Of a DNA stretch of 64,000 bases, positions 39,270 to 44,637 are shown piece after piece. The stretch spans positions 1,149,001 to 1,213,000 of the forward strand of contig NZ_JAZHRR010000001.1 of assembly GCF_036924515.1 (NCBI RefSeq), in the 5' to 3' direction. The stretch comes from Bradyrhizobium sp. AZCC 1610 (lineage in GTDB: Bacteria > Pseudomonadota > Alphaproteobacteria > Rhizobiales > Xanthobacteraceae). Positions within the stretch are counted from its first letter, which is position 1; the number at the start of each line of letters is the position of its first letter. The position numbers were made by a program, and so were the translations under genes. The notes under the pieces are model-generated. The model was not told where the DNA came from. It did no database searches and worked only from the letters and a program-made list of their open reading frames with translations.

Positions 39270-40829
39270 ATGACGTCAGCCAACAAGTCCGAGAAGGACC
39301 GCGTAATCGTATTCGACACCACCCTGCGTGACGGCGAGCAGTGCCCGGGTGCCACCATGACGTTCGAGGAAAAGCTCGAGATCGCCGAAATGCTCGACGA
39401 CATGGGCGTCGACGTCATCGAAGCCGGTTTCCCGATCACCTCCGAGGGCGATTTCCAGGCGGTCAGCGAGATCGCCCGCCGCTCCAAGAATTCCGTCATC
39501 GCGGGCCTGTCGCGCGCGCATCCCAAGGACATCGACCGCTGCGCCGAAGCGGTGAAATTCGCCCGGCGCGGCCGCGTCCACACCGTGATCGCGACCTCGC
39601 CGCTGCACATGCGCGTCAAGCTGAACATGACGCCGGAGCAGGTGGTCGAGCTCTCGGTCGCCAACGTCACCCGCGCCCGCAACCAGGTCGACGACGTCGA
39701 ATGGTCGGCCGAGGACGGCACCCGCAGCGAGATGGATTTTCTCTGCCGCATCGTCGAGGCCGTGATCAAGGCCGGGGCCACCACGGTCAATATCCCCGAT
39801 ACCGTCGGCTACACCGTGCCGGAGGAATACACCAGGTTCATGCGCACGCTGATCGAGCGCGTGCCGAATTCCGACAAGGCGATATTCTCCGTGCATTGCC
39901 ATAACGACCTCGGCATGGCAGTGGCGAACTCGCTGGCCGGCATCGCCGGCGGCGCGCGGCAGATCGAATGCACCGTCAACGGCATCGGCGAGCGGGCAGG
40001 CAATGCCGCGCTCGAGGAAGTCGTGATGGCGATCAACGTCCGCAACGACGTGTTTCCGTGGTGGAACAAGATCGACACCACCATGCTGACGCGGGCCTCG
40101 AAGCTGGTATCGGCGGCGACCTCGTTCCCGGTGCAGTACAACAAGGCGATCGTCGGCCGCAACGCGTTCGCCCATGAAAGCGGCATCCATCAGGATGGCG
40201 TGCTGAAGGACGCATCGACCTACGAGATCATGCGCCCCGAAATGATCGGCCTGAAGAAGTCGTCGCTGGTGCTCGGCAAGCACTCCGGCCGCCATGCCTT
40301 CGTGCATAAGCTGGAGGAGATGGGCTACAAGCTCGGCGACAACCAGCTGGAAGATGCCTTCGTGCGGATGAAGGCGCTGGCCGACCGCAAGAAGGACATC
40401 TATGACGAGGACATTGAGGCGCTGGTCGATCAGGAGATCGCGGCCTCGCATGACCGCATCAAGCTTGTTTCGCTGACGGTGATCGCCGGCACCCACGGCC
40501 CGCAGCGCGCGACCATGAAGCTCGACGTCGAAGGCCAGATGAAAATCGAGGAAGCCGAAGGCAACGGTCCGGTCGATGCTGTGTTCAACTGCATCAAGGC
40601 GCTGGTGCCGCACGAGGCCAAGCTGGAGCTGTATCAGGTCCACGCGGTCACCGAAGGCACCGACGCGCAAGCCGAAGTGTCGGTGCGGCTCGCCCATGAA
40701 GGCCGCTCGATGACGTCGAAGGGGGCCGATCCGGATACGCTGGTCGCCTCGGCAAAAGCCTATCTCGGTGCGCTGAACAAGATCGTCATGAAGCGCCAGC
40801 GCGACATGCCGGCACAGGCGGCGAGCTGA
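39270..40829 (+). CDS. leuA: 2-Isopropylmalate synthase
   Basis: LeuA condenses 2-oxoisovalerate with acetyl-CoA, the first committed step of leucine synthesis. The 519-residue protein has the active-site start FDTTLRDGEQCPG, the metal-binding FSVHCHNDLG and NGIGERAGNAALEE, and a full C-terminal regulatory (allosteric) domain after about residue 390. I chose ATG 39270 with AAGGAA upstream. Its final 105 bp are repeated exactly at 44533-44637, and a third variant tail lies at 40936. Confidence 0.96.
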   Translation: MTSANKSEKDRVIVFDTTLRDGEQCPGATMTFEEKLEIAEMLDDMGVDVIEAGFPITSEGDFQAVSEIARRSKNSVIAGLSRAHPKDIDRCAEAVKFARRGRVHTVIATSPLHMRVKLNMTPEQVVELSVANVTRARNQVDDVEWSAEDGTRSEMDFLCRIVEAVIKAGATTVNIPDTVGYTVPEEYTRFMRTLIERVPNSDKAIFSVHCHNDLGMAVANSLAGIAGGARQIECTVNGIGERAGNAALEEVVMAINVRNDVFPWWNKIDTTMLTRASKLVSAATSFPVQYNKAIVGRNAFAHESGIHQDGVLKDASTYEIMRPEMIGLKKSSLVLGKHSGRHAFVHKLEEMGYKLGDNQLEDAFVRMKALADRKKDIYDEDIEALVDQEIAASHDRIKLVSLTVIAGTHGPQRATMKLDVEGQMKIEEAEGNGPVDAVFNCIKALVPHEAKLELYQVHAVTEGTDAQAEVSVRLAHEGRSMTSKGADPDTLVASAKAYLGALNKIVMKRQRDMPAQAAS

Positions 40830-40857
40830 AGCTTCGCGCTCGTCAACGGGCTAACGA

Positions 40858-40886
40858 AACGCGGTGCCACAAGTGCCGCGTTTTTT
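40858..40886 (+). terminator. Rho-independent terminator after leuA
   Basis: AACGCGG (40858-40864) pairs with CCGCGTT (40876-40882), followed by a run of T to 40886. It lies 29 bp after the leuA stop. Confidence 0.8.
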
Positions 40887-40935
40887 CTTTGCATTGGCCT
40901 CTCCACGTCATTGCCTGCGATAGCGAGGCAATCCA

Positions 40936-44100: not shown

Positions 44101-44480
44101 CTGAAGCTTCGGCATGGGCCGGAGAAACTGAGCAAGGGTTGACTGCGCTGGCCGAGGCTGCGGCTGCTGTCGAGGAGACCGGTGAGCGGCGATGGGAGGC
44201 GGAAATCTGTCGCTTGAGTGGGGAGCTGACGGTGGCGAGGCAAGGCGGCGAGCGGACCGAAGCGGAAGCGTGCCTTCGGCGTGCGCTTGAGGTGGCCGGT
44301 CGCCAGAGCGCCAAGGCCCTGGAACTGCGCGCTACCGCCAGCCTGGCCCGGCTCTGGCGTGACCAGGGCAAGCCGCAGCAGGCCCATGATCTCCTCGCGC
44401 CGGTCTATGGCTGGTTCACGGAAGGTTTCGACACGCCCGATCTGCGGGAGGTCAGGGCGCTGCTTGATGCGCTCCGGTGA
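41136..44480 (+). CDS. SAM-domain / class III nucleotidyl cyclase / AAA-ATPase / TPR signalling protein
   Basis: The 1114-residue protein has an N-terminal SAM domain (about 1-58; LERWLVPLGLVQLAPALRAN), then a class III adenylate/guanylate cyclase domain (about 85-260; MFCDLVGSTALS with metal ligand D92, and KYMGDGALLYFG). An AAA/STAND-like ATPase follows (Walker A AEPGVGKSRL, Walker B VLWVFEDVHWIDP), then a long TPR-like helical C-terminus. It probably makes cAMP in response to an unknown signal sensed by the TPR region. I chose GTG 41136, with AGGAG upstream; a TTG at 41085 is weaker. It is flanked by leuA 3' ends, suggesting acquisition. Confidence 0.85.
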   Translation: MDELERWLVPLGLVQLAPALRANDVDLKILPELSEADLEKLGLSLGQRKKLLKAAACLPQPATLAGPSATPASTVSAVSSAERRQLTVMFCDLVGSTALSAALDPEDLREVIGAYHRCVAETVSRFDGFIAKYMGDGALLYFGYPQAHEDDAERAVRAGLALIDAVDQLKTSERLRVRIGIGTGLVVVGDLIGSGEALERAVVGETPNLAARLQALGEPNTIVVGPMTRHLLGDLFEYRDLGAVAMKGFPQPVHAYQVLRSSAVESRFEAFHSAGLTPLVGREEELELMLRRWQRATSGEGQVVLLSAEPGVGKSRLVAALQEKLQAEPYSRLRCFCSPHHQGSALYPVIKQLERAAGFTGDDPPAVRLDKIEALLTTAATAAEDMPLLAELLSLPSDRYCPVSLSPPAKKERTLQALARQVEDLSRRKPVLWVFEDVHWIDPTSLELLHMTVDRVQQLPVLLLLAFRPEFSPPWIGQPHVTMLALGRLNRRDTAALVQRVVGDKVLPSAVVHEIIDRTDGVPLFVEELTKAVLEAGAEGDAKAVLSRTSPGSIAVPATLHASLLARLDRLSPEAKEIAQNGAAIGREFTDDLIRTVSPLPEAPLQSALEQLAASQLIFRRGSSAYSFKHSLVQDTAYGTLLRGKRQALHARIARALEEKFPDIVATQPEMLAHHFTEADLTENAVTYWRKAGQRAAERSAHAEAIAHLRKGLMLVDRVAEPAERARRELDLQLVLAPVLISTKSWSAPEVEQVYLRARDLCRQVGDVAQLFAVSWGLWLVYQQRCEFKTARDLLDELFALARQSTDPALLLQAHHAAWTTLLNLPDLTACRAHIEAGLALYRPDAYRAHKFLYGSHDAAVCNRYTAAAALWPLGFPEQALAAAREAVSMARELSHPFSLVLALVFAAMIYQHRREAEPTREQAEAAIAVCAEHGIAPHLKAAGSILRGWAMAARGQAVEGIAEVRGGLAAVEPTAVRIRRPYHLALLAEASAWAGETEQGLTALAEAAAAVEETGERRWEAEICRLSGELTVARQGGERTEAEACLRRALEVAGRQSAKALELRATASLARLWRDQGKPQQAHDLLAPVYGWFTEGFDTPDLREVRALLDALR

Positions 44481-44490
44481 CGCTCCTGTG

Positions 44491-44637
44491 GTGTCAATCC
44501 ATGAGGGACGTTCGATGACCGCGCGCGACGCCGCCGATCCGGATACGCTGGTCGCCTCGGCAAAAGCCTATCTCGGTGCGCTGAACAAGATCGTCATGAA
44601 GCGCCAGCGCGACATGCCGGCACAGGCGGCGAGCTGA
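44491..44637 (+). pseudogene. Second copy of the leuA 3' end
   Basis: In the leuA frame this encodes IHEGRSMTARDAADPDTLVA and the rest of the LeuA C-terminus, stopping at 44637. The last 105 bases (44533-44637) are identical to 40725-40829. The bases before that are diverged and carry one extra codon relative to leuA. It begins about 11 bases after the cyclase stop, so the cyclase gene is bracketed by leuA ends. Confidence 0.9.

Follow-up and report, generated by a model that had tools for sequence, protein, structure and literature searches.

A cyclase gene between leuA 3' ends in Bradyrhizobium: probable lateral acquisition of a segment bounded by leuA sequence

The leuA region and its repeated ends

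The analysed stretch of 64,000 nucleotides from Bradyrhizobium sp. AZCC 1610 (positions 1149001-1213000 of its contig), here called the window, contains an intact leuA gene, followed by a cyclase gene and, further downstream, by dctP. The features of the region are reported in Table 1.

Table 1. Features between leuA and dctP (positions within the window); donor and recipient refer to the proposed history of the locus
Position	Strand	Feature	Basis
39270..40829	+	leuA (2-isopropylmalate synthase), intact, putative recipient clade	Pfam/NCBIfam and leuA tree
40725..40829	+	tail 1, last 105 bp of leuA	
40830..40935	+	IG1, terminator-like stretch and left arm of a dispersed two-armed palindromic repeat	
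40936..40973	+	tail 3, last 38 bp of putative donor leuA, including the stop codon	in register with relatives' leuA-flanking DNA
40974..41135	+	IG2, intergenic stretch before the cyclase, putative donor DNA	88% identity to G240, 86% to G081
41136..44480	+	SAM - class III cyclase - AAA_16 protein, 1114 aa, putative cargo	Pfam
44481..44499	+	the cyclase's own 3' flank	like the DNA after the cyclase in L060-L064, by eye
44500..44533	+	remnant X, leuA remnant of another allele, 34 bp	fits leuA of other species better
44533..44637	+	tail 2, 105 bp, identical to tail 1	string equality
44638..44790	.	post2, hairpin-type repeat and unmatched DNA	compared with 21 relatives
44791..47151	+	downstream DNA of the putative recipient clade, and dctP	identity to G078, G170 and G171

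By string comparison, tails 1 and 2 are identical at 105 of 105 positions and form a direct repeat. The bases adjoining the two copies differ, being G and C, respectively, before them, and AGC and GGT after the stop codon. Farther 5', the second copy continues as diverged leuA sequence; aligned with each other, 136 nt of leuA and 139 nt of the copy are 91% identical. The exact repeat and a third tail from a different allele, at the same positions, and the diverged 5' part of the second copy had all been described in an earlier sequence-only reading of this DNA, and all three are borne out. In a search of the whole genome these two were the only matches to the leuA tail, further matches to the leuA region falling in a dispersed repeat that adjoins leuA. 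Over the tail, the window differs from its best relatives at 6-7 of 105 sites. Had tails 1 and 2 diverged for as long, the Poisson chance of finding no difference between them would be about 0.001-0.0025, so that the duplication should be recent, or its copies homogenised.

Exact repeats invite misjoins, and an assembly artefact was considered for this reason. The host genome is, however, a single contig of 7.75 Mb, 99.99% complete, and both the succession of a tail 3-type end, IG2 and the cyclase and the joint between cyclase and remnant recur in other genomes. We regard an artefact as extremely improbable.

The cyclase gene

The cyclase has a GTG start at 41136, while the longest reading frame would begin at 41085. 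The Pfam search found SAM, guanylate-cyclase and AAA_16 domains, in that order, which is also the domain order of SAM - class III cyclase - AAA_16 signalling proteins. A SAM-cyclase-AAA-TPR protein of 1114 residues had been predicted; the length and the first three domains agree with the search, but no TPR family was reported in the protein at E 0.001. Its score against TIGR03903 (TOMM_kin_cyc) stays under the cut-off (578.7 versus 705.75 bits), and the Pycsar cyclase matches found by PADLOC, run on the cyclase only, cover the catalytic domain alone. The gene is 92.6% identical to its counterpart in G240 and 92.5% to that in G081. Sequences related to it are present in 132 of the 146 genomes of the genus that were searched.

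leuA-cyclase order in the genus

The stretch made of tail 3, IG2 and the start of the cyclase (40936-41380) was searched in 265 genomes of the genus, and 10 of them match it at 397-803 bits. In five (the window, G240, G081, G123 and G074) the match starts at the end of leuA; in the others (G111, G134, G144, G062 and G063) it starts later, and leuA is far off or on another contig. G240, G081, G123 and G074 have no IG1 here, and their leuA is directly followed by IG2 and the cyclase. Because the three are contiguous in these genomes, tail 3 can be assigned to the leuA of this arrangement; as judged by this order, it is the donor leuA's own end, still joined to the cargo. The suggestion that successive events each left a leuA end behind thus holds in part: recombination appears to have left leuA ends, whereas tail 3, given the same contiguity, does not record an insertion of its own. 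As a side observation, the leuA-adjacent cyclase of G123 (L068) lacks about 1.9 kb of internal sequence (query 888-2826).

Trees and synonymous divergence

The occurrence of the same order in four other genomes would also fit vertical inheritance of leuA and cyclase, if relatives had lost the cyclase and gene conversion by leuA had later altered the leuA fragment downstream. Trees were built from 19 rows for leuA, 18 for dctP and 12 for the cyclase, where G123 is only 26% filled. In the leuA tree the window falls in a clade of 13 rows, supported at 100/100 by a bootstrap that had not fully settled. A single clade of the five leuA-linked genomes is rejected by both flanking genes (p-AU 1.7e-5 for leuA, 2e-36 for dctP), as is a clade of the window, G240 and G081 (4e-5 and 5e-7, respectively). 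The dctP tree also splits the other four leuA-linked genomes, so that transfers of dctP itself add to its rejection. In the cyclase tree the window groups with G240, G081, G123 and G063 (92/99), no branch being starred; the window, G240 and G081 do not form a clade there, and constraining them to do so is not rejected (p-AU 0.26). Simple vertical descent does not agree with these phylogenies.

Synonymous divergence (dS) of the window from G240 and G081 is 0.200 and 0.215 for the cyclase, 0.457 and 0.433 for leuA, and 0.618 and 0.586 for dctP. Between G240 and G081 it is 0.169 for the cyclase, 0.250 for leuA and 0.233 for dctP. The cyclase value being lower in this pair as well, a good part of the contrast belongs to the gene itself; an excess remains, since, scaled by the G240-G081 pair, the window-G240 cyclase value would be expected at about 0.31 on the basis of leuA, or 0.45 on that of dctP, against the 0.20 seen. 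From G074 the window differs by 0.372 for the cyclase and 0.439 for leuA, a small contrast which sits well with vertical descent. The cyclase dS of G123 is based on 261 codons only, in a broken frame. Vertical descent would, in addition, require that the 12 genomes grouped with the window in the leuA tree had lost the gene, and a cyclase dS to G240 and G081 under half that of leuA speaks against it, as do the trees. We consider it distinctly unlikely.

Flanks and joints of the segment

The outer flanks resemble the window's own clade. DNA at 44791-45110 is 86-92% identical to G078, G170 and G171, and dctP is 96% identical to that of G170; no cyclase lies between leuA and dctP in G078, G170 and G171, and the sequence downstream of leuA, as far as it was read, also lacks one in the remaining 12 members of the clade that holds the window in the leuA tree. 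Within leuA itself, a scan revealed no tract resembling G240 or G081. The cyclase had been taken as cargo, and a donor-like leuA-IG2-cyclase interior between recipient-like flanks agrees with this view.

IG1 is 80-82% identical to the DNA after leuA in G023, G028 and G149, and IG1-like DNA follows leuA in cyclase-free genomes. Two-armed copies of the palindromic repeat occur in the window at 12390, 17138 and 25047. The left joint has only the left arm, immediately followed by tail 3.

Remnant X matches the leuA of five loci (including L129 and L150) at 31 of 34 positions, and the window's own leuA at 24. A remnant is also present after the cyclase in G240 and G081. When the leuA ends of 70 genomes were compared with each of the three remnants, the best fit was always with another species (31/34 for the window, 31/34 for G240 and 30/34 for G081); the leuA of the same genome reached 24/34, 29/34 and 25/34, respectively, the gap being small for G240. 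In G240 and G081 the remnant is followed by thioredoxin- and CcdA-like genes (named by eye), which the window does not have here. Their remnant ends at GCCG, the point at which tail 2 begins in the window; the right joint lies in a GCC-rich stretch where the donor remnant would end. The three bases by which the second copy exceeds leuA are located, by eye, at this joint. With half a repeat at the left joint and three extra bases at the right one, neither is seen to be a clean in-register exchange. Within post2 no match to the 21 relatives compared covers more than half of it, and none of them provides a source.

The leuA 3' end as an insertion site

The 3' end of leuA had been proposed to act as an insertion site. 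In order to look for leuA fragments around other genes, the leuA 3' ends of 70 genomes (part of the 265) were compared, all against all, with the DNA after leuA, with reversed sequences as a control. Among the matches listed, fragments occur downstream of leuA in 3 of the 70 genomes, always with this cyclase and never with other cargo. The listed matches above the best control (34.7 bits) are those of the window (173 and 42.6 bits), G240 (47.3) and G081 (44.1), besides two at 36.3 bits, taken as chance. A general role of the leuA 3' end as insertion site was rejected on these counts, despite the frequent presence of DNA at this place: dctP was found downstream of leuA in 54 of the 70 genomes, at a distance of up to 361 bp in 30 and of 664-6718 bp in 24. 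By these distances, the leuA-dctP interval does collect DNA. In some genomes the interval (40830-46149 in the window; L059-L167) holds genes that look, by eye, like those of sensor kinases, transposases and thioredoxin/CcdA.

Site-specific integration would make the leuA 3' end an attachment site, with 105-bp att repeats and an integrase since lost, and would explain why a gene's 3' end is repeated exactly and in the same orientation, why leuA is intact and why the cargo lies in between. It fits less well with leuA pieces unequal in extent and allele, 38 bp on the left (tail 3) against 138 bp on the right (remnant X and tail 2), and with the few genomes carrying leuA fragments among the matches listed. 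The genome has 17 matches to PF00589 (tyrosine recombinase), none of them within 1149001-1213000, and one to PF00239 (serine recombinase), at 4556499, again outside the window, in line with the earlier remark that no integrase is visible. We hold site-specific integration to be highly unlikely. All four Y1-transposase matches of the genome also lie outside the window; the dispersed two-armed repeats may be related to them.

A proposed history of the locus

The segment begins with tail 3 and finishes with remnant X, both of which are sequence from the 3' end of leuA, homologous to the recipient. Most likely, a segment of about 3.6 kb (40936-44532), bounded by leuA sequence, came into this genome laterally; that it was laterally acquired we consider very probable. 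The donor segment would have consisted of a leuA end, IG2, the cyclase and a leuA remnant, like the region in G240 and G081, and would have been added to a chromosome of another clade (that of G170, G028, G278 and others).

For the way of entry, our preferred reading, which we find fairly probable, is recombination without an integrase, aided by leuA homology and with at least one illegitimate joint, in either order of events. RecA-type pairing at the shared leuA sequence would have brought the two DNAs together. Of the joints, the left one at least, located at the broken palindromic repeat, would be illegitimate. On the recipient, the right joint falls at a position upstream of the left one, so that a recipient leuA end would be found on both sides of the segment. 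A single homology-facilitated illegitimate event could suffice; alternatively, after an insertion, a chromosome lacking the cyclase may have provided a new leuA end in place of the existing one.

The latter course is a serious possibility, to which we give somewhat less than even weight. Insertion at leuA would first have left a hybrid gene with tail 3 as its end; tail 1 and IG1 would then have come from a chromosome in the same population that had no cyclase, the replacement stopping at the palindromic repeat. It accounts for tail 3 being stranded behind IG1, for the lack of agreement between the sequences that follow tails 1 and 2, and for the IG1-like DNA after leuA in cyclase-free genomes, but at the price of two rare events; moreover, no intermediate genome appeared among the matches listed from the 265 genomes, where the search for a second leuA copy was listed to E about 8e-34.

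Several observations count against integrase-free recombination aided by leuA. Besides the share of the dS contrast that is the cyclase gene's own, the small contrast to G074, the transfers of dctP itself and the cyclase tree without starred branches, no remnant follows the cyclase in G123 and G074, and a simple duplication of the leuA end would predict IG1 after tail 2, where post2 is found, so that a further change would be needed. A bolder extension seems unlikely to us: the cyclase, with leuA-end fragments on both sides, would carry a portable homology arm and pass between chromosomes of the genus without an integrase. Each passage would then leave a scar, an old one being remnant X in G240 and G081 (nearest to the leuA of genomes such as G186 and G004) and a recent one that of the window. 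Overall, the locus looks like the product of ordinary recombination at shared sequence rather than a new kind of mobile element.

Relation to known systems

Some genomic islands are integrated into the 3' end of a gene by tyrosine recombinases. The present locus resembles them in the gene 3' end directly repeated around a cargo and in the intact target gene, and differs in the lack of an integrase match in the window and in leuA pieces unequal in extent and allele. A fixed core common to both ends was looked for, and the left and right leuA pieces differ; target fragments at the same site with other cargo were looked for, and among the matches listed the three positive genomes all have this cyclase. 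For these reasons the locus is not filed with integrase-borne islands.

Homology-facilitated illegitimate recombination has been documented in the transformation of other genera (PMC6382021), and the locus may work in a similar way. In such recombination, incoming DNA is anchored by homology, the other joint has little homology and no dedicated recombinase takes part; that process is known from transformation, whereas here it is read from the scar in the sequence. A literature search on leuA, judged by title, returned nothing relevant.

The locus offers a readable case of an accessory gene entering beside a core gene, with no integrase seen, in which the pieces from donor and recipient can still be told apart. 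A further lesson is that cargo enclosed by copies of a gene's end does not necessarily point to an attachment site.

Other occurrences of the cyclase

In a plasmid collection 127 records match the query, none covering 80% of it, and no source of the segment was found there; the 20 listed of the 127 are at most 74% identical, and two more lie in the 80-90% band.

Five genomes (L060-L064) have another locus in common that carries the same cyclase. Its flanks are about 89-95% identical in the main matches, and in at least four of the five the cyclase lies behind a pcaB-like gene (named by eye). A duplicated end of the neighbouring gene was searched for at these loci, and the best direct matches (22-27 bits) were about equal to the reversed controls, in a test that is weak, since with the genome's own leuA as query the true remnant of G081 scored only 26.9.

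Two pieces of the same cyclase, 89-90% identical, lie on a 441-kb contig of G153 (L067; G153:C2:413500-425000). They adjoin a more distant cyclase-like stretch, and a 58% match over 395 bp was recorded at this locus.
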